From a virus: a stretch of 29,328 nucleotides of DNA. Of this stretch, positions 3,177 through 23,464 are shown piece after piece. The stretch spans positions 1 through 29,328 of IMG/VR virus record IMGVR_UViG_3300021959_000273. One strand, given 5' to 3'. The notes below the pieces were generated by a model, which was given only the letters and a program-made list of their open reading frames with translations, was not told where the DNA came from and made no database searches. Both the position numbers and the translations under genes were made by a program. Position 1 is the first letter of the stretch, and every line of letters starts with the position of its first letter.

Positions 3177-3527
3177 TTATATTATTATAAAATCATTGTC
3201 AAAGCTATCCTCACTAACAAACTTATCTTTGTTTATTGTGTAATAATCGTTGCTAGATTGGTTAATAGTTTGATTAGTGCAAAAAACTTTATCCTTGTAT
3301 ATAGTATCACTACCGTTTAAAACCTCTAAAGTAAAAAAATCATTCTCTATAAGCGTTCCAAAAACAGCCGCAAAAGATAAATAATTCCCATCAATAGTAG
3401 ATGTAGTGTCAACAGAAACAACAGTATTCGTACTTTCACTTCTTAACTTTAGAGTTAAAGCACCTACAATAAATTGTCTAGGGATAACTTTAAAAGTCTT
3501 GTTTCCGTTTGTCTGTATTAACTTCAT
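3177..3527 (-). CDS. Beta-rich structural protein of unknown function, 116 aa
   Basis: This 116-aa protein begins MKLIQTNGNKTFKVIPR and contains LTLKLRSESTNTVV, FFTLEVLNGSDTIYKDKVFCTNQT and an acidic C-terminus ending DNDFIII. The alternating pattern suggests a single beta-sandwich. It is the first gene after a strong terminator (3573-3606) and carries the conserved 33-base leader cassette at 3528-3560. It is therefore probably expressed with the capsid genes. It stops one base before the portal start. I infer a virion decoration or adaptor role; no family is certain. Confidence 0.65.
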   Translation of the reverse strand: MKLIQTNGNKTFKVIPRQFIVGALTLKLRSESTNTVVSVDTTSTIDGNYLSFAAVFGTLIENDFFTLEVLNGSDTIYKDKVFCTNQTINQSSNDYYTINKDKFVSEDSFDNDFIII

Positions 3528-3560
3528 ATTAATATATAAAGAAAATTAAAATATTTTGTA
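3528..3560 (-). promoter_or_regulatory. Conserved 33-base start cassette, copy 1
   Basis: Minus-strand TTTATATATTAAT directly abuts the ATG at 3527, and TACAAAATA lies at -33 to -25. The same two blocks occur at the same distances before the genes starting at 6927, 14735 and 5807. It sits immediately after a terminator, so it could be a structural-gene promoter giving a very short leader, or a translation signal. Confidence 0.6.
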
Positions 3561-3572
3561 TAGTATAGGCAT

Positions 3573-3606
3573 AAAAAAAGGGCTATCCGTTAAGATAACC
3601 CCTTTT
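3573..3606 (-). terminator. Rho-independent terminator after the tail tube gene
   Basis: Minus-strand RNA reads AAAAGGGGUUAUC, loop UUAACG, GAUAGCCCUUUU, then more U. This gives a 13-bp stem with two G-U pairs and a U tract. It lies 18 bases past the tail tube stop and just upstream of the next gene's cassette. Confidence 0.85.
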
Positions 3607-3624
3607 AAACAATCAAATCAATCC

Positions 3625-4152
3625 TTATGAAGTTGGGTCAATTTGTACAGCAGAAGCATCAGCAGTAATTACAGATGGTGTTGCAAAGTAAGGCGGTGCA
3701 GTTTCTTGAGCGTTTACAGTTAAAGTGTAACCAGTCAAGTCTCCCATTGCAGCTCCAGTTGTAATAGTACCACCATTTACATCTCCTCCGTTCTCAAGAC
3801 CTACTACGAAATAGTTTCCGTTGTAATCTTCTACGCAAACGTGTGGTCTAGCGTGAGCAATTAATTTTAATTCTTCTTGTGTTGCTTTGTCTTGTAAAGT
3901 CAAAGTCATATTCAATGTAGTATCGTAGAACGTCGTCCCATTCTCTCTACTTGAAGAAATAGCGGTTTCCATTGATGAGTTACCTTTTACATCAAATTGA
4001 AACCAAGAAGGAGAGCCAGAAAAAGCTGTAATCTCTCCAGAAGCGATGGTAGCATCTCCTAAAGTACCAAAGTCAGCGAAATAAATGGTTTTTATACCAC
4101 CTACTGCACTTTTGCAAGGTACTTTTCTACCAGTTGTTAATGAACAAGCCAT
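3625..4152 (-). CDS. Major tail tube protein
   Basis: This 175-aa protein is Gly/Thr/Ala-rich with a beta-dominated pattern. It begins MACSLTTGRKVPCKSAVGG. The middle contains FYDTTLNMTLTLQDKATQEE and HARPHVCVEDYNGNYFVVG, and the end contains GAAMGDLTGYTLTVNAQE. The motif set (a TTFYD strand, ARPHV-EDxNGN, MGDLTGYTLTV) matches what I know as tail tube subunits of flavobacterial siphophages. It would polymerise around the tape measure. It is flanked by its own terminators at 4173-4202 and 3573-3606, so it can be made in amounts different from its neighbours. It directly follows the capsid gene, whereas tail tube genes usually sit near the chaperone. Confidence 0.7.
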   Translation of the reverse strand: MACSLTTGRKVPCKSAVGGIKTIYFADFGTLGDATIASGEITAFSGSPSWFQFDVKGNSSMETAISSSRENGTTFYDTTLNMTLTLQDKATQEELKLIAHARPHVCVEDYNGNYFVVGLENGGDVNGGTITTGAAMGDLTGYTLTVNAQETAPPYFATPSVITADASAVQIDPTS

Positions 4153-4172
4153 AAGTTATAGTTTTTTTAAAT

Positions 4173-4202
4173 AAAAAAGGGTAGGTGTTTTACCCACCCC
4201 TT
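4173..4202 (-). terminator. Rho-independent terminator after the major capsid gene
   Basis: Minus-strand RNA reads AAGGGGUGGG, loop UAAAACA, CCUACCCUU, then U's. The 10-bp stem includes three wobble pairs. It lies 20 bases after the capsid stop and before the tail tube start, so it probably attenuates read-through. Confidence 0.8.
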
Positions 4203-4222
4203 CCTAATGATTATTAATTTAA

Positions 4223-5158
4223 TTAAGCGTAAAGTACGATATCAGATACTTGTGCATATTGTACACCAGCAGTAAATCTCATAATTACTCGGATATTTTG
4301 AGAACCATCAGTATCTCCCATATCAATTACTCTTACTTCGTTTTGGTCTGACAATAAGCCAGTTCCAAAGAATAAGTTAGATTTTTCAGCAGCAATCATA
4401 GTGTTATCACTCATTCCTTTTGATACTACAATCTGAACACCATCAAAGAATAAACCTCCTAATACTTGGTTTGTCCCTTTGCTATCGTAACCAGCGTTAT
4501 CTCCAGCAGCAGCAAATCCTCCTAAAGCTCTAGTGTAAGCACGAGCTACATTAGAAGAAACATAAAGACGTAAATCTTCTTTTCCGTAAACAGCAGTAGG
4601 AATTGCATCTACAACTTTTCCAAGCTCAGCAATAACATTAGATGCTAAGATACCACCACCAACAGCAGCAATTTCTTGTCCAGCTGGTAAATCTCCATCA
4701 GCAGCAAGTAATACAGCTAATCCATCAAACTGACCAGATGTAGCGTTAGCTCCAGACCAGATGTTTTTTTCAATTCTATCAGCTACTTTAGCAGAAACGT
4801 GAGCTAAAACAAAATCAGAGAAAGATGCTGGTGCATCAGCAAAAGCAGAGAATCCCATCTCTAGTGCTTGCCAAGACTGGTGTAGCTCTTTCTTACAGAT
4901 TTGTAGGTTTACTTGAAACTCCTCAGCTAAAAGAACTTTTTCTGTTAAAGTTAAAGTTCCTTGATTTGTTGCAAAGTCACAAGATGCATCTTTAACGATA
5001 TCGTCAGTTGATGCTTTTTGTAGAACTGATTTGTATCTTACGTTAGGCAAGATTGTAATTTCATTGTTTGCTAGTGTGTCTCCAGAAAGTAACGCAGCAG
5101 CGATGTATTTTCCAGCAAATTCTCCAGCATAGGTACTGTTAGTGATTACTAAACTCAT
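4223..5158 (-). CDS. Major capsid protein (HK97-fold)
   Basis: This 311-aa protein begins MSLVITNSTYAGEFAG. It is Ala/Gly-rich and typical in length for HK97-fold subunits. Landmarks include an N-terminal arm, LTEKVLLAEEFQVNLQICKKE, a spine-helix-like HVSAKVADRIEKNIWSG, then VYGKEDLRLYVSSNVARAY and the closing beta strands VIMRFTAGVQYAQVSDIVLY. It follows the scaffold gene by 22 bases and the protease lies just upstream, which is the usual protease-scaffold-capsid set. The codon pattern is conservative and a terminator follows, consistent with high expression. Confidence 0.85.
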   Translation of the reverse strand: MSLVITNSTYAGEFAGKYIAAALLSGDTLANNEITILPNVRYKSVLQKASTDDIVKDASCDFATNQGTLTLTEKVLLAEEFQVNLQICKKELHQSWQALEMGFSAFADAPASFSDFVLAHVSAKVADRIEKNIWSGANATSGQFDGLAVLLAADGDLPAGQEIAAVGGGILASNVIAELGKVVDAIPTAVYGKEDLRLYVSSNVARAYTRALGGFAAAGDNAGYDSKGTNQVLGGLFFDGVQIVVSKGMSDNTMIAAEKSNLFFGTGLLSDQNEVRVIDMGDTDGSQNIRVIMRFTAGVQYAQVSDIVLYA

Positions 5159-5180
5159 TTTATTTAATTTTTAGTTGTTA

Positions 5181-5807
5181 TTATTTATTTAAATTTGATA
5201 TTACTCTATCCATTGTGTTAGGCTTTCTGTTTGAACCTATTCTAAATTTAGATAGTGTTTTGAAAGACTCTGGGTTTGAAACGATAGGCTCAGCACTTGG
5301 CTCATTTAATTCAGCTTGTACTTCTTCTGGTACTTCGTTAAGCTCTACTTTTTCGTGCTTAGCAAGTTCTTCAGTCATAAGGTTACCTATATCTTCAGCA
5401 CTCATTTCTTCTTTAGGCTCTAGCATAGCTTTGATTTCCTCAATCATTTCTTTTACTTCTGCTAGTTCTTCTTTAGTAGCGTAAGACATTTCTTCTTCGT
5501 TAGCCTCAACCTCTACTTGAGCTTCTACTTCTTCTTCTACTTCTTCTTCAGATTCCTCAGATTTGATTTCAGAAATAATTCCTTCTTCTTCTATAACTAG
5601 AATAGTTCCATCTTCAAGAGCATACTCTCCAATAGGTAAGGCAACTTTTTCATCTGAATCCTCAGTAACGATAAAGACTTCTTTACCACCTTCAAAGCTG
5701 TCAGCTTCTATAATAGTTCCGTTGTCTAGTTTCATTTGCTCTAACTTAACTTCCTCGTTAAGATTAAGAACGTCTTTGATTTTTTCAATCACATTGTTTG
5801 ACTTCAT
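5181..5807 (-). CDS. Head scaffolding protein
   Basis: This 208-aa, strongly acidic protein has three visible parts. Residues about 20-80 form a small beta-rich segment (KLDNGTIIEADSFEGGKEV, ALEDGTILVIEEEG). Residues about 80-150 are a Glu-rich coiled coil (EEEVEEEVEAQVEVE and EELAEVKEMIEEIKAML). The C-terminus is basic (SKFRIGSNRKPNTMDRVIS), as expected for the capsid-binding end of a scaffold. It lies immediately upstream of the capsid gene and downstream of the protease. The protein would guide procapsid assembly and then be cleaved or released. Cassette copy 2 precedes its start. Confidence 0.75.
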   Translation of the reverse strand: MKSNNVIEKIKDVLNLNEEVKLEQMKLDNGTIIEADSFEGGKEVFIVTEDSDEKVALPIGEYALEDGTILVIEEEGIISEIKSEESEEEVEEEVEAQVEVEANEEEMSYATKEELAEVKEMIEEIKAMLEPKEEMSAEDIGNLMTEELAKHEKVELNEVPEEVQAELNEPSAEPIVSNPESFKTLSKFRIGSNRKPNTMDRVISNLNK

Positions 5808-5840
5808 ATTAATATATAATTTAGTTTAATTTAATTTGCA
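5808..5840 (-). promoter_or_regulatory. Conserved 33-base start cassette, copy 2
   Basis: TTATATATTAAT abuts the scaffold ATG at 5807 and TGCAAATTA lies at -33 to -25. It is one base off the TACAAAATA form at two positions. The spacing is identical to the other three copies. Confidence 0.55.
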
Positions 5841-5843
5841 TTT

Positions 5844-5993
5844 TCAAGCACTAGTTTTTCCTATACCTTGATTCATTATATCGCCTTTACAGCACTTTAT
5901 AGAATAAACATCTCTATCCTTACATAAGCACCCCTTACGTCCACCCTTTGGACTTGTCTTACTTGGTGTGAAATATTTTAGTAGTTTATTCAT
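5844..5993 (-). CDS. Cysteine-rich small protein, 49 aa
   Basis: This is a 49-codon gene starting at ATG 5993, which overlaps the protease stop by 8 bases. The protein contains KGGRKGCLCKD, then KCCKGD, then NQGIGKT. The two cysteine pairs could bind zinc. I associate the pattern CLC-x(n)-CC-x-GD-x(n)-QGIG with small proteins near capsid genes of Bacteroidota phages, with no known function. It sits between protease and scaffold. Confidence 0.7.
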   Translation of the reverse strand: MNKLLKYFTPSKTSPKGGRKGCLCKDRDVYSIKCCKGDIMNQGIGKTSA

Positions 5994-6927
5994 TCTCTAA
6001 TTGTTTTAATTTAGATTCAGCCCAAGACATAGCGGACTTACCACCCCATAATAAATATGATATAGTTCCACAAGCCTCTGTATCTTTTGGGTTATAATAT
6101 GTTTCTGCTCTAGACAAATAAGAAAACATTCTTTTTATGGTCTCTTTAGATACTGGTTTCCCTTGTGCTAATTGTTGTGCTCTTACTTTCCCTACTTGTG
6201 TAGCACACTTGTTGTTTACAGCCTCATTAAGTTTTAAACCTCTCTTTGCGTTGTTACTTACTGATTGTGGATAATCTGAATAAGTTTCTAAAACCATTTT
6301 CTTACCACCTTTTACTCGCTTATCATTTTTAATAATAGCTTTTATTTCTTTTAGTAAGTATTCTGCTTCAGCTTCCTCAATAGCTGCTAGCTCTTCGTCT
6401 ATAGACTCTTTAGGTCTTTCCATCTTATCTGCGAAGTAGCCCTCTATACTAAACCCCTTTACCTTACCAGTCTTTACAAATTCGTTCCAAATTTTATCGT
6501 TGTTTACTTTTACCGAGCCAACCCAAGAGCCTAAAGGTAAATCCATACCATACTTAACACTCTTGTCGTGTACCTTATCTTCAACAATCCAAGACTCTAC
6601 TAAACTAAGTCCATTCACTTCGTATTGGTGTTCTAATGTAGCGTTGTTTTGTTTGCTATTCATTAAATACATTTGAGAGGCTTTTAAGACAGTATCTTTT
6701 GAAAAGTATATGTAATACTCGTCCTCTCCGTTTCGTCTATAAATAGGCTTGTTAGGTATCAATAAAGCACCCATAAGTATTCTACGTTCTTTGTCAACTT
6801 CTGCTAGTTTAAACTCTTGTGATTTAAGAGCTACAAAATCTTCTTCTATAGCTGGAGACTCGACTACACTAATAGCCTCTATTCCTAATTCGCTTTCCTC
6901 GTCTAATATTAGTTCAACTATTCTCAT
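5986..6927 (-). CDS. Prohead maturation serine protease (XkdF-like) with C-terminal domain
   Basis: This 313-aa protein has an N-terminal XkdF/prohead-protease-like part. It begins MRIVELILDEESELGIEAI, followed by SVVESPAIEEDFVAL. The NATLEHQYEV segment holds a candidate catalytic His100 and GFSIEGYF holds a candidate Ser160, the usual His-then-Ser order of S78/U9-type prohead proteases. Residues about 205-313 are a separate domain with LKLNEAVNNKCATQVGK, RMFSYLSRAETYY, CGTISYLLWGG and MSWAESKL, found fused to such proteases in related phages. It probably cleaves the scaffold and capsid during maturation. It is preceded by cassette copy 3, which fills the whole gap after the tape measure gene. 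Confidence 0.75.
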   Translation of the reverse strand: MRIVELILDEESELGIEAISVVESPAIEEDFVALKSQEFKLAEVDKERRILMGALLIPNKPIYRRNGEDEYYIYFSKDTVLKASQMYLMNSKQNNATLEHQYEVNGLSLVESWIVEDKVHDKSVKYGMDLPLGSWVGSVKVNNDKIWNEFVKTGKVKGFSIEGYFADKMERPKESIDEELAAIEEAEAEYLLKEIKAIIKNDKRVKGGKKMVLETYSDYPQSVSNNAKRGLKLNEAVNNKCATQVGKVRAQQLAQGKPVSKETIKRMFSYLSRAETYYNPKDTEACGTISYLLWGGKSAMSWAESKLKQLENE

Positions 6928-6960
6928 AATAATATATAAATGTTTTTTATTTATTTTGTA
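6928..6960 (-). promoter_or_regulatory. Conserved 33-base start cassette, copy 3
   Basis: TTTATATATTATT abuts the protease ATG at 6927 and TACAAAATA lies at -33 to -25. The intergenic gap is only 34 bases, so the cassette occupies essentially all of it. Confidence 0.6.
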
Positions 6961-6961
6961 T

Positions 6962-9292
6962 TTATCCTAATGTAGCACCTTCAACTATATTGTTTTGTAA
7001 ACTCTGTGCTGTTGTTACATCGTTAGAGACTACATAAGTTTGTATAGGTTGTTGTGATTGTCCTCCTATTGCCTCAGCTAATTGATTAGAATTACTAGCA
7101 CCTACAACATTAAAAGCTGGAGGAGATGGAGCAGCTCCAACACCACCACCAACAGAAGCACTACCGCCTCCACCACTATTAGGAACTTTTACACTTTTTA
7201 TAGATTGTATTTGCTTTAAACCTCCAGCAACCGCTGCACCAGCAGCCGCAATACCTAATGCTGGCCCAACAATAGGAATAGGTGCTAAAGATGCGTAACT
7301 AGATTGAGCAGATTGATATGTGCTTATCAAGGCTTGTGAAATAGCTAAAGCCTTACCAGCAGCAGTTTCTTTACCAGCTAATTGAGCGAATGAACCTAAA
7401 GCATTACCTACTTTTGCTAAGTTTTGCCTTTTAGCTTCAGCTTCTTTTTCGGCTAACTCAATACTAGCTTTTGTATTAGCGTCTTTAATTGATAACAATT
7501 CAGCACCTTGAGCTTTTTCTAAAATACTTGTATCTTCTCCGTATTTTTTAGCTTGCTCTATAAGGTTGAAGTACTTGTCATTTATTGCTTGAATCTCTAA
7601 CTCTTGTTTAGTTAGGCTTCTGTTAAAGAACTCATTTTCTGCATCTTCTATCTGTTGTAATAAATTTAATTTATTTTTAAGTTCTTGGTCTTGTGCTTTT
7701 TTAATTTCTTTAGCTAGTTTTTCTTCAGCTTTTAACCTTGCTTCTTTTTGTTCTTCAGTTTCCTCATCTATTTTTATTTTCTTCTCTTCATTTAATCCGT
7801 CTATTACTTTTTGTAATTCTTCTTCGGCTTTTATAATTTTCCTATTTTTCCATTCTTGCCAAAAAGCTCCTTTTTTAGCTCCTTCTTCCTCTAGCTTAGA
7901 AATCTCTTTCAGTTTTTTATTTGCAAAATTTACCATTAAGACAGCTTGAGCTAATTCTTCTTCAGCTTTATCAACATCAATACTACGACCAATAATTGGT
8001 ATATCTGCCAAGAACAGTTTAAACGTAGAGAATTCTTTTTGCATTTTACCAACAAACAAACCAACGTTAGCAGCTCTCTTTGATAAGCCAGCTTCTTGCT
8101 CTGCTGCGTTATCAGAATCGCCAAAATAATAATCTAATGTAAACCCAGCAAATTCAGTAACATCAGTTAATCTAGATATAGATTTAGTAAGGTTTTGAAT
8201 TGCCCCTCTAGATAGTTTATTTAAAATTCCTTCTCCATCCTCTATGTTTAACAAGAAACCATCCCAAGCAGAAGATAGTTTTGTTGTATCTCCTTCAAGG
8301 TTATCAAGTCGAATCTCTGCCATTGCTTTAGCAGCACCTCCCGCATCTTCAAATGCTACTTTTAAATCTTCAATGTCTTTAGTTCCTTCAGCTAATGATA
8401 AAAATGATTTAGCACCTACAACACCAACTAATTCAATAGCTGTTCCAAGTCCGTTTGATGAATTAACAACTTTTTCAAAAGCATCGTTAATGTCAATGCC
8501 TTTTTTATTTAACTCAATAAATGACTTTGCCAAACCAGTTCCAGCTACACTACCCTTTAAACCATTATTTGCTAATACTCCAAGATAAGCTGCTGTTTGC
8601 TCAATGCTTACCCCAGTTGCTCTTGCTACTGGTGCAACTACTTTTAAACTCTCTTTTAATGCTTCAAAATTTAATGCAGAGCTAGAGGTACTTTTAGCCA
8701 TTACATCTACAACCCTTTGCGTTTCAGCAGTAGTCAAACCAAATGACCGAACGACAGAACCAGCGAATTCAGCAGCACTAGCTAAGTCAATTTCTAAAGA
8801 TGCAGCTAAGTCTAATATAGCTGGAGTAGAATTCTTAATGTCTTCAATAGTAAAACCTAACTTAGCTAACTCAGTCTGTAATCCCACAACCTCGATAGCA
8901 GTAAACTGTGTAGTCGCACCTAATTGTTTAGCTTGAATCCCAAGTACCTTTAATTCATCAGCAGTATTACCAGTAACAGCTCTAAGTGTACTTAATCCTT
9001 TAGAAAAGTCTGCCCCTATTTTGTTAGCTTTTTTTAATACTGTTCCGAGAGCCCCTATGCCAACAACAAGAGCACCAATACCAGTAGATATGATAGCTGC
9101 CTTAAGTGCTTGAAGTGATGGTATAGCAGCCTTAATGGATGCACCCATACCAGAAAAAGCACCGCTTAACCCTTTACCAGTTTTTTTTGCAGTTTTTGAA
9201 GTTTTATCTACTTGTTGGTCAAGACCTTTTAACTTCTTGTCTACATCACTAGTATCCCCCTTTATTACTATTGTCTTTACTATCTTAGCCAT
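6962..9292 (-). CDS. Tail tape measure protein
   Basis: This 776-aa protein sets tail length. It begins MAKIVKTIVIKGDTSDVDKK. A Gly/Ala-rich hydrophobic stretch follows (about 55-90: LKAAIISTGIGALVVGIGA), then the TP901-type core (QAKQLGATTQFTAIEVVGLQ, SSALNFEALKESLKVVAPVA, TAAYLGVLANNGLKGSVAGT). A long coiled coil rich in Lys/Glu spans about 470-640. A second hydrophobic Ala/Gly region is near 660-710, and the C-terminus has a Gly/Ser/Pro-rich linker. By the usual rule of about 0.15 nm per residue this implies a tail near 115 nm. Unusually, the tail proteins precede it and head genes follow. Confidence 0.9.
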   Translation of the reverse strand: MAKIVKTIVIKGDTSDVDKKLKGLDQQVDKTSKTAKKTGKGLSGAFSGMGASIKAAIPSLQALKAAIISTGIGALVVGIGALGTVLKKANKIGADFSKGLSTLRAVTGNTADELKVLGIQAKQLGATTQFTAIEVVGLQTELAKLGFTIEDIKNSTPAILDLAASLEIDLASAAEFAGSVVRSFGLTTAETQRVVDVMAKSTSSSALNFEALKESLKVVAPVARATGVSIEQTAAYLGVLANNGLKGSVAGTGLAKSFIELNKKGIDINDAFEKVVNSSNGLGTAIELVGVVGAKSFLSLAEGTKDIEDLKVAFEDAGGAAKAMAEIRLDNLEGDTTKLSSAWDGFLLNIEDGEGILNKLSRGAIQNLTKSISRLTDVTEFAGFTLDYYFGDSDNAAEQEAGLSKRAANVGLFVGKMQKEFSTFKLFLADIPIIGRSIDVDKAEEELAQAVLMVNFANKKLKEISKLEEEGAKKGAFWQEWKNRKIIKAEEELQKVIDGLNEEKKIKIDEETEEQKEARLKAEEKLAKEIKKAQDQELKNKLNLLQQIEDAENEFFNRSLTKQELEIQAINDKYFNLIEQAKKYGEDTSILEKAQGAELLSIKDANTKASIELAEKEAEAKRQNLAKVGNALGSFAQLAGKETAAGKALAISQALISTYQSAQSSYASLAPIPIVGPALGIAAAGAAVAGGLKQIQSIKSVKVPNSGGGGSASVGGGVGAAPSPPAFNVVGASNSNQLAEAIGGQSQQPIQTYVVSNDVTTAQSLQNNIVEGATLG

Positions 9293-9423
9293 TTTATTTC
9301 TTGTTTAAGTGCTTTGTATCCTTCTTTTAATGTTGTAGGTAGTTTATGTTTGCCTTGTGCTATACGGATTAAATCAGTCTCTCCGTTTGCGTATTTTAAT
9401 CCTTCTATTATTAATTTTATCAT
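9280..9423 (-). CDS. Small protein upstream of tape measure, 47 aa
   Basis: This 47-codon gene runs from ATG 9423 to TAG 9280 and overlaps the tape measure start by 13 bases. The protein begins MIKLIIEGLKYANGETDLIR, then IAQGKHKLPTTLKEGY, and ends EIKWLR. It is mixed helical with no membrane segment. The function is unknown. Its placement suggests a tail-assembly accessory protein. Confidence 0.6.
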   Translation of the reverse strand: MIKLIIEGLKYANGETDLIRIAQGKHKLPTTLKEGYKALKQEIKWLR

Positions 9424-9432
9424 AATTTTTTT

Positions 9433-11721
9433 TTATGGTACTGCGACACAAGACATAATTGTTGTTACTCCGTTAGGACTTATAACCATAACCATTTGAG
9501 ACCCAGTATCGCAAAATTTAGTTTCATCATTCGTAATCCCTACTTGAGTATATGTGCCAGTTGATGGAAACGCTGTAAATGTTTCATTTGCATACATTAC
9601 ATCTCCGACTACTAGGTTTCTAACTGCACCTATATATGATTTATAATATAAAGTTACATTAGCTGAATTATAAGTAACTTCAATAGTGTTATAGTAAACT
9701 GTTAAATCATTTAATAATTCTATATCGCTTTTGCCAGTCTTTAGGTTAGTCTTAATTGAGTTTATTTTATATCTACGTCCATTAATATCAAACCTATCTG
9801 CTAAATTGTAGTTTAACAATATCTTTAAAGGCAAATAAGCAGTAACTTTAGTTAGTCTGTTTTTACTATTAAATATGCTTGTTATATAGTTTGAATAATA
9901 CTTTTGAAATAGAGTGCGTGAGAAATCTCCATCTGCATCATACTCATTAATTTCATTGTTAAAGTTTATATTATCCTTGCTAGTTGCATCGTCTAACGCT
10001 AAGGAATTACTAGGCACTATATATGTTGTTATAGGAGAATGTGTTGTAAGTCCATCTCTAAATGATATTTGAGTAGCACTAGTTTGTCTTATAGGATAAA
10101 ACAAAAATGGTTCTCCTATATAAGATTCCTCATTATCGTCAACACAATAACCCCATTGAATATCTGTATTACTTGAATCGTCTAAGTCTAAAAGTCTCTC
10201 AAATTTAAAATGTGCATAAGGTAACTCTACTTTATAAATACCTCCATCTAAATTTTCGTTACCGTTATATTCCTCTTTTGCCCACTCATAATTAAATAAC
10301 TGATTGTGTACAGCTGCTAAGAACGTATTAGTATCTTTATATCCAAAAGCAATTTCTTTGTATGGCAATGCTACGTTTACGTTACTAGTATTAACATCTA
10401 AATAACTGCTTATGTCATAATTAGTACCCTCAATATAAAAGTCGTCTAACGTTTGTACAACAATAGTACCAGCTTCGTTTACATAAGCTACTAAATTAAA
10501 CATCTTAAATAGACCAGATAGAAAGTCTATAACTTTAATTTCTGGTATCTGTTGCGTAATCTCAAACTGAATTTGTGCATTTACTGTAAAGTCTCCTTGG
10601 TCTGATGTTTCAAAAGTATTAGTTTGTCCTCCGCCACCTTGCTCAGTAGCTGTTATTTGCCACTTTATATTGGTAAAAGTTATTTGTTCTGAATGCTCTA
10701 TTACTACTGTATAATCTGAGTTGTTTACATACGCTTGTCCTGGCAATGTTATAAATTTGTTTTGAGTTGTTACGTCTGTACTAAAAGTATGAACACCGTT
10801 TCTTAAAATAGTAAGTGAATAAGGAATAGAGTTAGACCTAAGTAACGATAATGTTATACTGTCTAAGTCATAGTCAGAAGGTACGTTTGTTCTAAAAGTA
10901 GAAGTGTTAACCATACTTGCAAGGTCTCCAGATTCTGAAACCCAGCCATTTACTGTTGTAAAAAAAGTAGGTAGTTGTGCACCAAAGCCTACGTCTCCCT
11001 TCTTCCTATGCAGCCACATAAATAGGTTGTTGTATGGCAAATTAGTTGACGTAAAAAAGTCATTTGAAAATGTTATATTTGAGTAGTGGCTTTCTATAGC
11101 TTCTACTATTTTACGTATTCTTAAAGCGTATTTTAATTGAGACCATAATACTCCGTGCTGATGACCACTTTGATACCATAAGTTTCCGTCAGCCCCAGAG
11201 TTAGAAGATGTTTCAAAATACAGTCTATCTGTGTGCGTAATTAAAGGCACTATAACATCATTAGTAGTTGGGTCTCTTTGTAAAGCTGATTTAACTTCTG
11301 TTGTCGAATATATTTCATTAAGGCTATCTAAGTCAGTTAATACGTTTAACTTGTCTTCTCCTATAATGTCTTTCAAATCTACTGTATTGCCAAAGAAAGT
11401 TATGTTATAAGAATAGGGTATGTTTTCTTTTAGCTTTACACCCTCTAGTTTTATTTTACCTTTCTCAAAAGGATAAGTGTTTAGCTCTATAGTAGCGTTT
11501 TTCTTTATTCTAGCATCAAAGCCTCCATCTATATCAAAATTATAGTAGTGCTTAAATATCTTATTATTTGTTTTACTAGCTGGTACATTAAAGGTTTGAG
11601 TAAACGAAGTAAATATCTTAGCAACATCTCTTGCGTTCTTTATTGTCTGTGTTAACGATACAGATTCGTCTTGAAACAAATCTATCCTTTGCCCTTCTAT
11701 ATATAGTTCTATATTTTGCAC
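9433..11721 (-). CDS. Large tail protein (distal tail / baseplate-hub-like)
   Basis: This 762-aa, beta-rich protein uses a GTG start at 11721 that lies flush against, and in frame with, the TAG of the preceding gene. No ATG occurs in the first ~95 codons, so GTG is the only sensible start. The N-terminus (QNIELYIEGQRIDLFQDE, then ASKTNNKIFKHYYNFDIDGG) resembles tail-tip proteins common in flavobacterial phages, which bind the tube end and baseplate. Later parts include a DFLSGLFKMFNLVAYVNEAG segment like phage hub domains, and a NRLTKVTAYLPLKILLNYNL region. The role as tail-tip or hub protein is inferred from size, fold signals and neighbouring tail genes. Confidence 0.65.
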   Translation of the reverse strand: MQNIELYIEGQRIDLFQDESVSLTQTIKNARDVAKIFTSFTQTFNVPASKTNNKIFKHYYNFDIDGGFDARIKKNATIELNTYPFEKGKIKLEGVKLKENIPYSYNITFFGNTVDLKDIIGEDKLNVLTDLDSLNEIYSTTEVKSALQRDPTTNDVIVPLITHTDRLYFETSSNSGADGNLWYQSGHQHGVLWSQLKYALRIRKIVEAIESHYSNITFSNDFFTSTNLPYNNLFMWLHRKKGDVGFGAQLPTFFTTVNGWVSESGDLASMVNTSTFRTNVPSDYDLDSITLSLLRSNSIPYSLTILRNGVHTFSTDVTTQNKFITLPGQAYVNNSDYTVVIEHSEQITFTNIKWQITATEQGGGGQTNTFETSDQGDFTVNAQIQFEITQQIPEIKVIDFLSGLFKMFNLVAYVNEAGTIVVQTLDDFYIEGTNYDISSYLDVNTSNVNVALPYKEIAFGYKDTNTFLAAVHNQLFNYEWAKEEYNGNENLDGGIYKVELPYAHFKFERLLDLDDSSNTDIQWGYCVDDNEESYIGEPFLFYPIRQTSATQISFRDGLTTHSPITTYIVPSNSLALDDATSKDNINFNNEINEYDADGDFSRTLFQKYYSNYITSIFNSKNRLTKVTAYLPLKILLNYNLADRFDINGRRYKINSIKTNLKTGKSDIELLNDLTVYYNTIEVTYNSANVTLYYKSYIGAVRNLVVGDVMYANETFTAFPSTGTYTQVGITNDETKFCDTGSQMVMVISPNGVTTIMSCVAVP

Positions 11722-12891
11722 CTATCTAATATTGTTTATTTTATTATTAGCCATATCAAACTCTATAGTATAATCTACTAGCTTGTCGTTTAATGATGTT
11801 TTATGTGTAAATGATTTTGTCTTTACTACTAAAGGTCTAACCAATACCTCTGTATCTGTTATAAAAGTACCCCATACTTGTTCACTTAACATTAATTGTT
11901 CTATGACTTGGTTATAGTCTTCTGGCATATATCCAGTATTCATTGTTATACTGTCGTTACCTTGTACCATAAATTGAGTCTGCTGGTGTTGGTATGTTTT
12001 ATATGTAAGTGTGCTTAAGTCAAATACAGAAGATTTAAACTCCTCCCCTTTAACCTCTGTTTTTTCTATTGACTTTTTAAAGAACATTATATCTTGTAAA
12101 GCTCCAAACTTATTTACAAAAGTAACTTTGATAGGGTCGTATTTACATTCTTGTATGTTTTTAACATCTATAATTTTTACTTTATTAACACCATTTTGAG
12201 TATAGCTAATATGAATGCTATCACAGTCCATAAGTGTAAACTCGTCCTCAAATCCTTGTAAACAAACATTGTCTTCAAAAATACCACCAGCTAAAATAAC
12301 CCTACCTTGAAATGTATCAGCATAAGAATAGCCATTAGTAGCATAGTCTATTTGTTCTGCACTTTTATCGTTTTCTGATAAAGAAATAGATTTAACAACT
12401 TCACCATTTAAAACAAAAGCTACTGAATAAACAATAGAAGTGTTTACTGGTATAACAACAGCAGAATCATCTAACTTTAAAATAACGTTATTACTAATCA
12501 AAGCAGCATCGTTAATTATAGGGTTAGCACCCTCTTCAAAATATCCATAGCCATCAAAACCACAAAAACCGTTTGTATTGTCTGGCTCTATACCGCCTCC
12601 ACTTCCTCCAACTGCTGCATATATTATATTTATCCAAACATTTTGACCGACATACTGACCATCAAACTCTATCTCTAAATAATCTCTTATCAATTCGCTA
12701 ACCTCAAAAACTACAAAGTTATTAGTGCCTATTGGCTCTTTAGTTATTTGATATCTCTTTGTGCTGTCTGGCACACTTGCATTAGACACGAAATCTCCAG
12801 TATAAACGTGTAAATCTAGCCTAACAGATGTTAAGCCATCTTGTTTAACCTTTACATAAAAAGGGCTTCGTAAGTTTATTTGAGTTTGCAT
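11722..12891 (-). CDS. Tail structural protein, beta-rich, 389 aa
   Basis: This 389-aa protein starts MQTQINLRSPFYVKVKQDGL and consists mainly of predicted beta strands, with a Gly-rich loop GGSGGG near residue 95. It contains IHISYTQNGVNKVKIIDVKN and YKTYQHQQTQFMVQGND. No enzyme motif is visible. It lies between the gp10-like tail completion gene and the large tail-tip protein, with a 1-base gap upstream. I infer a virion tail component, perhaps a tip or fibre-attachment protein. The family is not certain. Confidence 0.65.
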   Translation of the reverse strand: MQTQINLRSPFYVKVKQDGLTSVRLDLHVYTGDFVSNASVPDSTKRYQITKEPIGTNNFVVFEVSELIRDYLEIEFDGQYVGQNVWINIIYAAVGGSGGGIEPDNTNGFCGFDGYGYFEEGANPIINDAALISNNVILKLDDSAVVIPVNTSIVYSVAFVLNGEVVKSISLSENDKSAEQIDYATNGYSYADTFQGRVILAGGIFEDNVCLQGFEDEFTLMDCDSIHISYTQNGVNKVKIIDVKNIQECKYDPIKVTFVNKFGALQDIMFFKKSIEKTEVKGEEFKSSVFDLSTLTYKTYQHQQTQFMVQGNDSITMNTGYMPEDYNQVIEQLMLSEQVWGTFITDTEVLVRPLVVKTKSFTHKTSLNDKLVDYTIEFDMANNKINNIR

Positions 12892-12892
12892 T

Positions 12893-13423
12893 TTACTTTT
12901 TGTTTATGTTTACTTGTATCTGTTTTTCTAATCCTATTGAGTATGCTTCTAATAATTCATCTGGTAAGCGTTTGAAAGCTGCCCTAAAAGGTTTTGTAAA
13001 AAACAAACTAGCTTTTATTCCAGTTTGATATATACTTCTACTTATTAAGTAAGATGTGCTATCATAGCTTAAGAACCTACCACTCTTCTTATCTCTGAAC
13101 TGTATGCCTTTACGTCTTACCCACTTGTTAATACTTTTTGTTAACCCTCCCTTTTTACCGCTTCCAGTTCCAAATCTATATGGGCTGTTAGGTGCTTTGT
13201 TACTTTTAACTTTACCTTTAACACCTAAATCTTGAAACGTTCCATAATCCTCCATTTCAAAGGTTAAGCTAAACCCTTTTGCTGTCTGCTCTACATCATA
13301 CCCTAAACTCTTATATAGACTACTAGAAGCATTCTTTTTACCTTTAGTTAAGTTACTTCTAGATTGCTGTATAACATACTTAGCAAATCCATTAAGAGAG
13401 TCTTGGGTTTCTTTGTTTAGCAT
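12893..13423 (-). CDS. Tail completion / HK97 gp10-like protein
   Basis: This 176-aa basic protein has the N-terminal helix LNKETQDSLNGFAKYVIQQS. A Lys-rich SNLTKGKKNASSSLYKSLGY segment follows, then a beta region (FSLTFEMEDYGTFQDLGVKG) and a long basic loop around SGKKGGLTKSINKWVRRKG. The F-x-D-x-G-x-KGK signature followed by a Pro/Arg-rich loop is typical of HK97 gp10-type and related tail-completion proteins. Its ATG overlaps the upstream gene's stop by 7 bases. It likely acts at the head-tail joint. Confidence 0.65.
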   Translation of the reverse strand: MLNKETQDSLNGFAKYVIQQSRSNLTKGKKNASSSLYKSLGYDVEQTAKGFSLTFEMEDYGTFQDLGVKGKVKSNKAPNSPYRFGTGSGKKGGLTKSINKWVRRKGIQFRDKKSGRFLSYDSTSYLISRSIYQTGIKASLFFTKPFRAAFKRLPDELLEAYSIGLEKQIQVNINKK

Positions 13424-13887
13424 ATAGTTATATCGTTAGCTACTAACACATCCATAGTTGCTGTCCATCCAGCTACTTTGTTTTCAAATCTATCATAGAA
13501 AGGCTCTAGGCTTGCATCTCCATCTAAAGCATACTGATTACTATATAAGTCTCCTTTACGCAACACCATTACTAGTTTATTTAAAACTCCTAATTGTGTG
13601 TTAAGTATATCTTGCTCGTTATTGTTGCCTCTAAATATATCCTCTGTTTTCTCTTTGCTTTCATCTACAACATCCATTGATAATACTGATATGTTAAACC
13701 TTAATACAGATTCTTCAGCATTTACATTGTTTATTATTATGTGTGATAAAGGGAATATACTTTGCTTAGATAAGTCAATATCATATATATCTCCAGTTGT
13801 AACTGTATTTACGTTTACATCACTTAGAAGCTGTGCCTCTATTGTTTCAGTTAATAAATAAAATCCTCTTATTCCAGTATTACTCAT
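13417..13887 (-). CDS. Putative tail terminator protein
   Basis: This 156-aa protein begins with the LTETIEAQLLSDVNVNTVTT segment, followed by GDIYDIDLSKQSIFPLSHI. It also has DILNTQLGVLNKLVMVLRKG and a closing FENKVAGWTATMDVLVAND. A short helix, strand, helix and terminal strand layout of about 150 residues is typical of tail-terminator (gpU/gp17-like) proteins, which cap the tail tube. Position between chaperone and gp10-like gene fits. The assignment rests on size, pattern and context, so an equally placed tail-completion role is possible. Confidence 0.5.
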   Translation of the reverse strand: MSNTGIRGFYLLTETIEAQLLSDVNVNTVTTGDIYDIDLSKQSIFPLSHIIINNVNAEESVLRFNISVLSMDVVDESKEKTEDIFRGNNNEQDILNTQLGVLNKLVMVLRKGDLYSNQYALDGDASLEPFYDRFENKVAGWTATMDVLVANDITIC

Positions 13888-14008
13888 TCTCTGTCATTTT
13901 AATGGTTTTCAAAGTTGTTACAAAAAACACAACTAAAATTGATATAGATACAAGGTTCAAGTGACTTTCTCCACAAGTACCAAATAAATGTTTTACTATT
14001 TCTATCAT
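13880..14008 (-). CDS. Small membrane protein, 42 aa
   Basis: This 42-codon gene has an ATG (14008-14006) that overlaps the stop of the frameshifted chaperone reading frame (TGA 14007-14005). Its own stop lies 5 bases inside the next gene. The protein begins MIEIVKHLFGTCGESHLNL and has one predicted transmembrane segment (about 20-34, VSISILVVFFVTTL). The coupled start supports translation. The function is unknown. The LFGTCGESHLN motif recurs in my memory of small proteins of flavobacterial phages. Confidence 0.6.
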   Translation of the reverse strand: MIEIVKHLFGTCGESHLNLVSISILVVFFVTTLKTIKMTENE

Positions 14009-14735
14009 TTGAATTTACTTTTTATATTCCTTGATTCTATTTCGTTTTTCTCTTTTGTATATGCTAAGAATGTTAAACACTCGTGAACATTTAGTTTAGT
14101 GATATTTTCAAACTTTGTAATATCTCCGTTAGCGATTCCATAGATTGAATTGTACCAACCCCATTTGGCAGAGAAGTTAGATACTGCACTAAGGTCTCCT
14201 CGTTCGCTTGATTCGAAGAGTTCAGCATAACTGTCGATAAGTCCTTCCCTAAATCGTAAAAAAAAACAATGGCTCCTAATACTGCATCTAATGGATAGTC
14301 CTTAGCATCTTCGTTTGTGTCTGGGTTATAGTCTTTAATCTTGTATCTATCCCCTTGCTTAAAGTCAATAGGTCTGTATAACACATTCATAGCCCTATGT
14401 AGGTTATTGTTGTCTCCTATGTAAGTGTCTAGGTCAACGTATTCCCCAAAGCTCATATCTTCTAAGCTAGGTATAAATCCATATTCTTGTTTGCCTAATT
14501 TAAACCTATTTATTAGTTGGTGGTTAGTATCAAACATATTATTTAATATAGTACAGATGTCTACTATATCAGTTGCTTTCATATTTCTAACAACTTGGTT
14601 AGGTACTTGACAGAATATCTCTATCATCTTAGATTGTACTTCTGATTCCTTTGCTACATCTAACTTAGCAAACTCTTGATACTGTCCTAGTGTAATCTCA
14701 TTTAGAGTTGTAGGTATGCTTAATTTTACTTCCAT
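14005..14735 (-). CDS. Tail assembly chaperone, long form made by -1 frameshift (G/GT-type)
   Basis: The ribosome would read 159 codons from ATG 14735, slip back one base on the T9 run at 14258-14266, and continue for 84 codons to TGA 14007-14005. The product is 243 aa. The -1 extension contains FSAKWGWYNSIYGIANGDI, TKFENITKLNVHECLTFLAY and EKNEIESRNIKSKF, a typical conserved chaperone second domain. This extension has no ATG, GTG or TTG before its conserved part: a TAA near 14300 closes the frame upstream. Its stop overlaps the next gene's ATG as ATGA. In lambda-like phages such fusions (gpGT) bridge the tape measure and tail tube subunits. Confidence 0.8.
14091..14735 (-). CDS. Tail assembly chaperone, short form (no frameshift)
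   Basis: This 214-aa frame-0 product begins MEVKLSIPTTLNEITLGQYQ. Landmarks are a tail-chaperone-like helical body with NRFKLGKQEYGFIPSLEDMS, GEYVDLDTYIGDNNNLHRAM, VLYRPIDFK and AVLGAIVFFYDLGKDLS. It ends after KISLN. It would coat the tape measure during tail assembly. By analogy with gpG/gpGT it should be made in excess over the long form. Cassette copy 4 precedes its start, and a terminator upstream separates it from the 76-aa gene. Confidence 0.75.
   Translation of the reverse strand: MEVKLSIPTTLNEITLGQYQEFAKLDVAKESEVQSKMIEIFCQVPNQVVRNMKATDIVDICTILNNMFDTNHQLINRFKLGKQEYGFIPSLEDMSFGEYVDLDTYIGDNNNLHRAMNVLYRPIDFKQGDRYKIKDYNPDTNEDAKDYPLDAVLGAIVFFYDLGKDLSTVMLNSSNQANEETLVQYLTSLPNGVGTIQSMESLTEILQSLKISLN
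14258..14266 (-). other. Programmed -1 ribosomal frameshift site (T9)
   Basis: In the reading frame the codons are GTT TTT TTT TAC, giving the slippery heptamer T TTT TTT. Slipping one base back gives TTA CGA next and opens the 84-codon extension. The run is also a homopolymer where a sequencing indel could occur. Confidence 0.75.
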
Positions 14736-14768
14736 ATTAATATATAAACATTTTTAATTTATTTTAGT
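14736..14768 (-). promoter_or_regulatory. Conserved 33-base start cassette, copy 4
   Basis: TTTATATATTAAT abuts the chaperone ATG at 14735 and ACTAAAATA lies at -33 to -25. It begins 13 bases after the terminator at 14782-14810, so if a promoter exists for the tail genes it should be here. Confidence 0.6.
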
Positions 14769-14781
14769 GACTATAAGATAC

Positions 14782-14810
14782 AAAAAAACCCCTACATTTC
14801 TGCAAGGGTT
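14782..14810 (-). terminator. Rho-independent terminator between P1 operon and tail operon
   Basis: Minus-strand RNA reads AACCCUUGCA, loop GAAA, UGUAGGGGUU, then a U7 tract counting the stem's last bases. The 10-bp stem has a stable tetraloop. It lies downstream of the 76-aa gene. Confidence 0.85.
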
Positions 14811-14959: not shown

Positions 14960-15190
14960 TTATTTATAAGATTTCTGTAATCTAACTTTTCTATTATTAA
15001 CATCCTCTCCTTGTATTGTGTAATCTCCAACAACCTCACATATTAATTGGTAATGTAAATCTGAAATATCACTAGGGTTTAGGTCAAATTCTAAAAATAC
15101 GTTATACACTTCCATTTTAACAGATGGTTTTAAGTCTCTCATTTCGTGTCTGTATTCGTGATTCCAAAAGTAATTGTTAATAGTTGTCAT
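14960..15190 (-). CDS. Small protein of unknown function, 76 aa, from promoter P1
   Basis: This 76-aa protein begins MTTINNYFWNHEYRHEMRDL, followed by SVKMEVYNVFLEFDLNPSDI and a basic C-terminus. It is predicted mostly helical, without a recognised domain. It is the only clear gene between promoter P1 and the terminator at 14782, so it is transcribed as its own unit. A leader AACAAAAACAAC precedes the ATG by a few bases, as in other early genes. It resembles a small regulatory or host-takeover protein in size and placement, but no evidence in its sequence proves that. Confidence 0.65.
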   Translation of the reverse strand: MTTINNYFWNHEYRHEMRDLKPSVKMEVYNVFLEFDLNPSDISDLHYQLICEVVGDYTIQGEDVNNRKVRLQKSYK

Positions 15191-15213: not shown

Positions 15214-15254
15214 CAAATATACGACATTATTTTAGTTATAAACAAATTATAAAC
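15214..15254 (-). promoter_or_regulatory. Bacteroidota-type promoter P1 with tandem GTTTATAA repeat
   Basis: On the minus strand TTTG (15246-15243) is followed after 21 bases by TATATTTG (15221-15214), matching the Bacteroidota -33/-7 consensus. The -33 box is embedded in GTTTATAATTTGTTTATAA (15254-15236), an 8-bp direct repeat with a 3-bp spacer. The start site should be near 15207. Confidence 0.8.
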
Positions 15255-16451: not shown

Positions 16452-16799
16452 TTATCTGTGTATCTTAATATTTATCTCTTTGTCTGTTGTATCGTGTTTA
16501 ACTTCTCTCTTTGTTCCGTTTAGCCTATGTGCTTCTTCATCGTCTGCTATAAGTTTCATTAGTCCTATTTGCAATGTAGCGTTATCACTTGCGTACCATT
16601 TAGCTCTCATAGATATCTTCATATTTATTCTATTCTTTGCTAATTCGCTTTTTATATCGTTACATTCTTGCAATTTATGGTCATAGAAGGCACGCTTACT
16701 AAACCCAGTATAAGCCATTATATCGCCTATAAATATTAGGTTATGTTTTTTTATTACTTCAATGCTTTCCTTTCTTAAGTCTTCTGTATTGTATGCCAT
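16452..16799 (-). CDS. Terminase small subunit-like protein
   Basis: This 115-aa helical protein begins MAYNTEDLRKESIEVIKKHN. It contains a putative DNA-binding helix-turn-helix (IGDIMAYTGFSKRAFYDHKL, about 27-46), then KNRINMKISMRAKWYASDNA, TLQIGLMKLIADDEEAHRLNG and a charged C-terminus. The order (DNA-binding segment, KWYxSDNATLQIGLMKL, EEAHRLNG) is what I associate with small terminase subunits of flavobacterial phages. It ends flush against the large subunit, which supports the call. It would recognise the phage DNA packaging site. Confidence 0.75.
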   Translation of the reverse strand: MAYNTEDLRKESIEVIKKHNLIFIGDIMAYTGFSKRAFYDHKLQECNDIKSELAKNRINMKISMRAKWYASDNATLQIGLMKLIADDEEAHRLNGTKREVKHDTTDKEINIKIHR

Positions 16800-16841
16800 A
16801 GTCTATTTATTGTATTTATATATAAACAGATTTACTTTTTT

Positions 16842-17198
16842 TTAGTCTTGTAGTATAGCTTCTACTTTTTCTATTTGCTCAGCTGTCATTTTATTGACTC
16901 GTTTTATTATGTTCATCTTACTGCTATTTATAAGAGTTTCATATATAAGGTCTAGGTCTGAGTTATAATAGTTGTGTTGGTCGTATGTGTTTACGCTATG
17001 TATTACGCTTGCGTGTGTTGTATTGAATCCGTTTACTGCATACTCCCTAACTATGTCTGACCATCTAAGTCTTAGTACGTCTACTAGATATTTGTTTGCT
17101 ACGCTTCGCATTTCTACTACGCTTCTACGTCTGCTTTGTTCTAGTATGTTTACGTCTGTGAGTTCTTTAATTGTATTTGCTATTGTTTCTATTTTCAT
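16842..17198 (-). CDS. Stand-alone DnaA domain IV-like DNA-binding protein
   Basis: This 118-aa protein aligns by eye with the C-terminal DNA-binding domain of DnaA. SRRRSVVEMRSVANKYLVDV (22-41) resembles the SRKREIVLARQIAMYL helix, and FNTTHASVIHSV (58-69) matches the DnaA signature HTTVLHA. There is no ATPase domain. It might bind DnaA-box-like sites in phage or host DNA, or help terminase recognise DNA, since the small subunit follows directly. Its ATG overlaps the preceding 44-aa gene's stop as ATGA. No DnaA-box array was found nearby. Confidence 0.65.
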   Translation of the reverse strand: MKIETIANTIKELTDVNILEQSRRRSVVEMRSVANKYLVDVLRLRWSDIVREYAVNGFNTTHASVIHSVNTYDQHNYYNSDLDLIYETLINSSKMNIIKRVNKMTAEQIEKVEAILQD

Positions 17199-20551: not shown

Positions 20552-20943
20552 AATCTAAATTTTTTAATATTCCATTTTTTACTAAAACCCTTCAATGTAT
20601 TACTAAGTGTTATTTCATTCTTTGCTTCTTTCCATTCTTTATTTATGTAAATACTATCTACATTACATTCATTTAACGGAATGTCCTTATCGTCATTTTT
20701 GAAGTTATGCGTAACATATAAAACAACGACCTTGTTAGTGTGCCAAGAGTCAGCTATTCTTTCTAATACTAATCTTTGACCTATTGGTATTTTATTACCT
20801 TTTCTTTTAACTTCCATTAATATCAACACCTCGTTATCAAACTCTAAAACTACATCAATGTCTGTTGGATGTATTTTACCGCTTTCAATTCCAGTAAAAT
20901 CTATTGTTTGTCTTATCTGTTTTGTGTTTCTTATTAAACTCAT
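20548..20943 (-). CDS. PD-(D/E)XK-fold nuclease candidate, 131 aa
   Basis: This 131-aa protein has a restriction-endonuclease-like core. HPTDIDVVLEFDNEVLILME is followed by VKRKG. Asp30 (or Asp28), Glu44 and Lys46 (MEVK) form D-x(n)-ExK, with hydrophobic strands around them. It could be a Holliday junction resolvase or other recombination nuclease. Its place between the sigma-like and small genes of the replication operon fits. The fold is supported by motif only. Confidence 0.55.
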   Translation of the reverse strand: MSLIRNTKQIRQTIDFTGIESGKIHPTDIDVVLEFDNEVLILMEVKRKGNKIPIGQRLVLERIADSWHTNKVVVLYVTHNFKNDDKDIPLNECNVDSIYINKEWKEAKNEITLSNTLKGFSKKWNIKKFRL

Positions 20944-21431
20944 AACTTTTCTTTTATATATTTTTTAGCGTTAGTATATGTGTTATAAAGTGAGTAATAA
21001 CTTATACCAGTATCTCTACTTAAAGATGCTACTGATTTACCACTAGCACATATTTCAAATACCTTTTTGTCGTACCAATACATATTATCTAGTATAGAAT
21101 CTATTTGCTGTTTACGAGCTGCATACTCTACTTCATCAATACCTAGATTCTCTGCTTGTTTAAGCTCGTCTATGTCTTCTAAATAAATTTTAATCTGTTT
21201 AGCTTCCTTTTTATATATGTTGCAATAAATACCTCTTAAAACCTTATAACAATAATAGTGGTTTATATCTCCATTAAAAGATAAATCCAACCCCTTCACA
21301 ATATCGTGATGGAGCTGGATATACATTTCGGAGACAATGTCTTCTGCACTACTAGGGTTGCACCCAAAAGACCTTACTATATTAATCCAGTCTTTGTGTT
21401 TGTCAAATGCTAATTCTAAGAGTGTTTTCAT
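20940..21431 (-). CDS. Sigma-70-like (ECF-type) transcription factor
   Basis: This 163-aa protein has the two-part layout of small sigma factors. Residues about 1-70 resemble region 2 (CNPSSAEDIVSEMYIQLHHD, YCYKVLRGIYCNIYKKEA). Residues about 108-160 resemble a region-4 helix-turn-helix (DKKVFEICASGKSVASLSRD, then TGISYYSLYNTYTNAKKYI). It might direct host RNA polymerase to phage structural genes. The cassettes at 3528, 5808, 6928 and 14736 are candidate targets. It could also be a non-sigma HTH regulator. ATGA overlaps link it to both neighbours. Confidence 0.65.
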   Translation of the reverse strand: MKTLLELAFDKHKDWINIVRSFGCNPSSAEDIVSEMYIQLHHDIVKGLDLSFNGDINHYYCYKVLRGIYCNIYKKEAKQIKIYLEDIDELKQAENLGIDEVEYAARKQQIDSILDNMYWYDKKVFEICASGKSVASLSRDTGISYYSLYNTYTNAKKYIKEKL

Positions 21432-23203: not shown

Positions 23204-23425
23204 TTATACTTCTTTAAATAGCTCGTAAGGACTGTTGTAATAACTTAGTAAGGTGTGTAAACTCATTACAACCCCATAAGATAAATCACTTACTTTAGTT
23301 TTTGTTTCTAGCTCTTGAGTTACTTCTTCTACTACTAACGGATAGTGAAAGTTTTGGTTTTCTAGCTTTGCTTTGTGTTCTGGTTTTAATCTTTCTGTTA
23401 AATACATTGTTTTTGTTTTAAACAA
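23204..23425 (-). CDS. First gene of the P3 operon, 73 aa
   Basis: This 73-aa protein begins MFKTKTMYLTERLKPEHKAK and contains VVEEVTQELETKTKVSDLSY. It is basic at the N-terminus and acidic later. It lies 6 bases after the P3 leader (AACAAAAACA), so it is the first product of the replication operon. No recognised domain; a regulator or accessory role would fit its position. Confidence 0.6.
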   Translation of the reverse strand: MFKTKTMYLTERLKPEHKAKLENQNFHYPLVVEEVTQELETKTKVSDLSYGVVMSLHTLLSYYNSPYELFKEV

Positions 23426-23464
23426 ATATACAAATAAATAATTCTTATAAACAAATTATAAACA
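23424..23464 (-). promoter_or_regulatory. Bacteroidota-type promoter P3 with tandem GTTTATAA repeat
   Basis: On the minus strand GTTTATAATTTGTTTATAA (23464-23446) contains the -33 TTTG, followed after 21 bases by the -7 TATATTTG (23431-23424). Transcription would start right at the 73-aa gene, so the leader is nearly absent. A terminator lies just upstream. Confidence 0.8.

Follow-up and report, generated by a model that had tools for sequence, protein, structure and literature searches.

In bacteriophage T4, the phage sigma factor gp55 directs late transcription from an A+T-rich -10 element (TATAAATA); these late promoters have no -35 box, they require the sliding clamp and gp33, and the mRNAs made from them are leadered. 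Bacteroidota, in turn, have unusual promoters and no Shine-Dalgarno signals. In the Thermus phage phiYS40, the middle and late mRNAs are mostly leaderless, which was shown by experiment, with IF2 raised and IF3 lowered (reviewed in PMC3594737). Our literature search on flavophage late promoters found no paper on how Bacteroidota phages time their late genes. Here, we analyzed the 29,328-base IMG/VR virus record IMGVR_UViG_3300021959_000273 (33% G+C; the whole stretch is referred to as the window), in which a 33-base, two-box cassette touches the ATG of the first genes of structural operons. The overall explanation that we propose, and regard as probable, is that the cassette is a phage-specific late promoter which is read by a phage sigma factor and gives mostly leaderless mRNAs. 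It would resemble the gp55 system in combining a phage sigma factor with an A+T-rich -10 box, and would differ from it by an upstream box and by mRNAs that are mostly leaderless. For leaderless middle and late phage mRNAs phiYS40 is a precedent, although that phage and its host are unrelated to those considered here.

The nearest cultured relatives of the window phage are the Nonlabens (Persicivirga) phages P12024S and P12024L (Inhavirus), which have related portal (37%), protease (45%) and tail (28%) genes. The link to these isolates came via the portal and tail genes, and the sigma-like protein of the window had no match among isolates by sequence. As in the window phage, two-box cassettes touch the ATG of first genes before structural operons in P12024S, where there are seven of them, and a sigma-like gene, gp33, follows a VRR-NUC gene; the P12024S record notes Sigma-70 region 2 for it, and a sigma profile search found it among all P12024S open reading frames (ORFs) with an E value of 7.7e-9. 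In contrast to the window phage, the -10 box of P12024S is CGTTAATA instead of TTATATATTAAT, its sigma factor is very diverged, and its genome is 35.7 kb. Since the same layout is found with a different -10 box and a different sigma factor, P12024S provides the strongest support for the proposed mechanism, and as a cultured phage with the same arrangement it makes the promoter reading testable. In Flavobacterium phage Fpv5, which is the closest by terminase, no such cassette was found upstream of the ten genes looked at.

What appears to be new is that a late promoter, its likely reader and a putative start base can be named for a large marine flavophage group with few cultured members. The promoter would be of an already known kind, phage-specific and probably sigma-dependent, and here it is joined to the start codon. 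The group holds several candidate sigma/promoter pairs that are matched by nature, including one from a cultured isolate. Should the late mRNAs prove leaderless, these phages would supply a well-delimited group of strongly expressed genes of this type, which are rare in the phylum, as well as compact orthogonal promoters for flavobacterial genetics. Leaderless mRNAs make up 5.5% in Flavobacterium psychrophilum (PMC9723704).

A two-box cassette at operon starts

The four copies described in the original prediction are present on the minus strand where it had placed them, and all four abut an ATG (ORFs 3177-3527, 5181-5807, 5986-6927 and 14091-14735). When the window was scanned with a scoring matrix of 36 columns, which was built from other contigs only (the window was left out) and stops before the ATG, five sites were found with scores of 35.3, 34.7, 33.6, 31.4 and 27.3, followed by a next best score of 8.4. 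As a chance control, 60 versions of the window simulated with a first-order Markov model scored 15.0 at best. The fifth copy, upstream of ORF 16452-16799, is absent from the original prediction, and the same layout is found in orthologs. The candidate promoters are listed below.

3528..3560, minus strand: putative late promoter, score 34.7; its -10 region TTATATATTAAT abuts the ATG at 3527; heads the portal operon; a terminator hairpin (3576-3605) lies just upstream
5808..5840, minus strand: putative late promoter, score 31.4; abuts the ATG at 5807; heads the probable scaffold/capsid operon
6928..6960, minus strand: putative late promoter, score 35.3; abuts the ATG at 6927; heads the prohead-protease gene; takes up the space between this gene and the tape-measure ORF
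14736..14768, minus strand: putative late promoter, score 33.6; abuts the ATG at 14735; heads the tail operon; a terminator (14787-14810) lies just upstream
16814..16849, minus strand: putative fifth late promoter, score 27.3; predicted +1 at 16813, a 14-nucleotide leader (16800-16813) and the ATG at 16799; heads the terminase operon

The five sites head five consecutive units, namely terminase, tail, protease, scaffold/capsid and portal. Across the four abutting copies the right half TTATATATTAAT is near-identical, and the shared right-hand part that had been described, TTATATATTAATATG, is exact in three copies, whereas 6928-6960 differs by a single mismatch. The left half resembles (C/T)AAAAT and is looser; the claimed upstream block does exist but is less uniform than claimed: two copies read TACAAAATA, 5808-5840 reads TGCAAATTA, and 14736-14768 is CTAAAATAA-like. 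In agreement with the earlier description, a hairpin and U-run stand just upstream of the copies at 3527 and 14735, which thus directly follow terminators, and the copy at 6927 occupies the whole gap after ORF 6962-9292. The spacing to the ATG is identical in these four copies, as had been stated, but the fifth copy stands 14 nucleotides from its ATG.

In IMG/VR, the exact cassette pattern occurs in at least 118 stretches, and among the matches listed nearly all are at the ATG of orthologs of the same four genes. Because the exact pattern included the ATG, further loci were collected solely on the basis of their similarity to the terminase or the sigma factor, and all loci were later scanned with the matrix; the site statistics are based on 359 distinct sites from related IMG/VR contigs. 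At 292 of the 359 sites, the ATG is exactly at the predicted +1, with the -10 box directly upstream of the start codon. At 65 sites, the ATG is 10-43 nucleotides or further from the predicted +1, and no site has it at 1-9 nucleotides. Fixed spacing to the ATG is therefore the commonest state but, given the leadered sites, no rule. The spacing between the boxes (YAAAAT to TTATATATTAAT) is constant over the related sites; the distance from TATATA to the ATG varies (11, 21-25 or 51-52 nucleotides). The cassette lies 14 or about 40-43 nucleotides before the ATG in terminase-operon orthologs, and 12 nucleotides before it in a subset of tail-gene orthologs. Leadered sites have T at -1 (63/64) and A at +1 (60/64) although the ATG of the gene is not there, and the two bases after this A are free (AAG, ATA, ACA; ATG in 1/64). 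The retention of T at -1 and A at +1 in leadered sites indicates that the 3' end of the cassette is itself part of the promoter.

The cassette is confined to operon starts, and internal cistrons, the probable major capsid gene among them, are without it. In relatives, the terminase operon begins with various genes that are not homologous to one another, and the cassette stands before these as well; among their products are a protein with the N-terminal sequence MQLINIQEV and two further small proteins, possibly small terminases. Since the same cassette stands before non-homologous first genes, it tracks the transcription unit and not the gene.

In many relatives (L044 and L073, for example), the terminase operon has its first gene swapped for one encoding a protein starting MQLINIQEVKPNENNPRFIKDYKF, which is possibly ParB/Srx-like, and the same promoter is kept. 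Upstream of the ortholog of 16452-16799 in L026 and L027, the stretch of about 40-43 nucleotides between promoter and ATG contains a hairpin and a U-run and is attenuator-like.

The sigma-like protein and its possible pairing with the cassette

The candidate reader of the cassette is encoded in the window itself and resembles the extracytoplasmic function (ECF) group of sigma factors.

20940..21431, minus strand: divergent ECF-like sigma factor, candidate cassette reader; 163 amino acids; TIGR02937 (sigma70-ECF), E 2.7e-8

The TIGR02937 model matches 29 of the 31 relatives of this protein. In its predicted structure (predicted local distance difference test score 82), two helical domains are joined by a weak linker at 79-98, which corresponds to the ECF layout of regions 2 and 4 only, without a region 3 domain. 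The best fold matches of the model were the Mycobacterium tuberculosis sigma factors SigH (top) and SigL. The predicted two-domain fold is thus like that of ECF sigma factors (SigH, SigL, SigE), and so is the CGT found in the -10 box of two related lineages, lineage B and P12024S; in F. psychrophilum, a CGT box in the -10 element is taken to indicate an ECF-sigma promoter (PMC9723704). In contrast to ECF sigma factors, the window protein falls below the curated cut-off, and the -10 box of the window lineage is without CGT.

Of the cassette-bearing records tested, all 10 with a length of 26.9 kb or more contained the sigma gene. The -10 box occurs in the subtypes TTTATATA, ACTATATA, TTGATATA and CGTTATAT, and a subtype is common to all sites of one genome. 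The -10 differences were 2.32 within a genome compared to 2.89 after shuffling, and none of the 2000 shuffles gave a value as low. On the sigma tree, the subtype changes 4 times, with a minimum possible of 3 and a shuffled mean of 11.6. That the subtype follows the sigma clade is expected from matched sigma/promoter pairs.

In L173 and in L118/L254, the sigma-like protein has a different C-terminal part, and the ordinary cassette is kept. The sole relative of the sigma factor in a cellular genome is on L239, a 3.5-kb contig of a Campylobacterales metagenome-assembled genome, which is perhaps a misbinned phage contig; as this is a single match on a short contig, it was rejected as a host indicator and no host was inferred from it.

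The proposed late promoter and alternative readings

In the proposed promoter, an upstream box (C/T)AAAAT would lie at -31 to -26, and the -10 box TTATATATTAAT would span -12 to -1. With the phage ECF-like sigma factor (20940-21431) bound, RNA polymerase would recognise the cassette and start RNA at the A that follows. For tail, protease, scaffold/capsid and portal, this A would be the first base of the ATG, so that with a start at the base indicated by the box positions four of the five late mRNAs would begin with AUG and be leaderless; before the terminase genes, this promoter would lie 14 nucleotides further up and give a short leader. For the early genes, the host polymerase would use TTTG/TAnnTTTG promoters. 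We infer the exact start base from the box positions together with the distribution of distances (0, or 10 and more), and the late timing from the structural gene content of the operons. Judged from the sequence, promoter activity of the cassette is almost certain, leaderless late mRNAs are very likely, and the phage sigma factor is likely to be the reader. There is good support for the original prediction of a phage-specific late promoter that yields near-leaderless mRNAs, possibly together with the sigma-like gene.

Several observations weigh against this reading. The score of the window sigma factor for TIGR02937 is below the NCBI curated ECF cut-off (33.6 compared to 42.9 bits), and for this reason it is called only ECF-like. 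L173 and L118 keep an ordinary cassette with a very divergent sigma factor (about 26% identity), which means that the sigma-promoter pairing is not strict, and the subtypes of sigma factor and promoter may match merely through joint vertical descent with the phage. With +1 at the A of the ATG, the upstream box begins at -31, which is nearer than the usual -35, and the transcript starts are predicted positions and not mapped ones. A promoter of the same anatomy could accordingly have another reader, such as a host alternative sigma factor, or host sigma A together with a phage activator or an RNA-polymerase-binding protein. We consider this unlikely but worth weighing, as the link between sigma factor and cassette is indirect, the L173 and L118 cassettes persist beside a very different sigma factor, and some phages redirect the host polymerase via small binding proteins (PMC5312081). 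Against it, the -10 box varies along with the sigma clade and has become CGT in two lineages of the sigma factor, and it fits no host motif described in the text of PMC9723704, including the sigma A box TAnnTTTG, which sits at -12 to -5 in F. psychrophilum. A host sigma A reading of the cassette was rejected, since TAnnTTTG is absent from it; some copies of the 3177 type in relatives have TAnnTTTG inside the spacer, and the window copy does not.

It is also rather unlikely that the cassette is a promoter whose mRNAs have leaders, with RNA starting a few bases upstream of the ATG (for instance at the A's at -2 or -3) or with the main late transcripts coming from further upstream. The start base depends on the box positions, and the A's at -3 and -2 are conserved too; in contrast, the ATG is fixed at +1 in 292 sites with none at 1-9 nucleotides, the +1 A and -1 T are retained where the ATG is absent, and terminators lie directly upstream of two copies. 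An extension of the leaderless reading is doubtful: in a widespread lineage of marine flavophages, the late programme would be switched to leaderless translation besides having its own promoter, with RNA of every structural operon beginning right at its ATG although leaderless mRNA is rare in the host phylum, and the ribosomes or initiation factors of the host would be tuned by a phage factor to favour 5'-terminal AUGs. A translation-initiation element, that is, an extended Kozak-like leader for a host without Shine-Dalgarno signals, is very improbable. It would agree with the finding that A at -3 and -6 before the ATG promotes initiation in F. johnsoniae (PMC6847099), as three of the four copies have these A's, while the fourth, 6928-6960, has T at -3. 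However, Kozak-like A's leave the box 31 nucleotides upstream and the leadered copies unexplained, and the cassette is found at operon starts only, being absent from internal cistrons such as the probable major capsid gene. The shared translation enhancer of the original prediction was rejected in its simple form, since the cassette keeps its internal spacing and stays intact when shifted 10-43 nucleotides from the ATG in many orthologs, in the terminase operon of the window and before unrelated genes, and is hence not tied to the position of the start codon. The location of the cassette at module boundaries would also suit a conserved boundary sequence that aids phage recombination and has no role in expression, but the two-box promoter layout, the placement after terminators, the variable leader and the co-change of copies within a genome make this extremely improbable.

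Candidate early promoters and other features of the window

The host sigma A promoter of Bacteroidota (TTTG / TAnnTTTG), from which the cassette differs, appears by pattern to be used by early genes of the window.

15214..15246, minus strand: candidate host-type promoter TTTG-N21-TATATTTG, a pattern match before ORF 14960-15190
23423..23455, minus strand: candidate host-type promoter TTTG-N21-TATATTTG, a pattern match at the start of early gene 23204-23425

About two chance matches to TTTG-N21-TATATTTG are expected in the window, and the host-type call rests on position and conservation; TAnnTTTG is kept in 73% of the orthologs of early gene 23204-23425. The suggestion of two start-signal classes holds in part: two early genes have host-type promoters and A-rich leaders, but the AACAAAAACA-like leader is no general early signal, being found in 36% of the orthologs of ORF 21428-22297 and in few others. 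A sigma-70 consensus scan gave 49 promoter-like sites, fewer than the 57.5 in shuffles, and its result was not used.

The structural genes of the window comprise a large terminase, tail gene(s), a tape measure, a prohead protease (Peptidase_S78_2), a probable capsid gene and a portal gene. The genes and terminators around the cassettes are as follows.

3177..3527, minus strand: 116-amino-acid protein, first gene of the portal operon; no family match
1367-3175, downstream of 3177-3527: portal; phrog_33693, E 1.9e-116
5181..5807, minus strand: probable scaffold of 208 amino acids, judged from position and acidic composition; phrog_24921 and phrog_11320, both "unknown function"
4223-5158, after the probable scaffold gene (5181-5807): probable major capsid
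5986..6927, minus strand: prohead protease; Pfam Peptidase_S78_2, 54.5 bits, above cut-off
6962-9292: tape-measure ORF
14091..14735, minus strand: first gene of the tail operon; phrog_32199, E 2.4e-20; weak match to phrog_166, tail protein
15297-16451: large terminase
16452..16799, minus strand: probable small terminase, judged from its position before the large terminase; no family match
14787..14810, minus strand: intrinsic terminator just upstream of the putative tail promoter; z -3.7
3576..3605, minus strand: intrinsic terminator just upstream of the putative portal-operon promoter; z -3.8

Between the protease gene and the next putative promoter, a small ORF of 49 codons (5844-5993, minus strand) was read by eye. 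No terminal repeat of at least 13 bases was found in the window. A tail-fibre-like ORF leaves one contig end and a similar ORF enters the other (1-582 and 28632-29328), with matching sequence order; the record probably represents an almost complete, circularly permuted genome.

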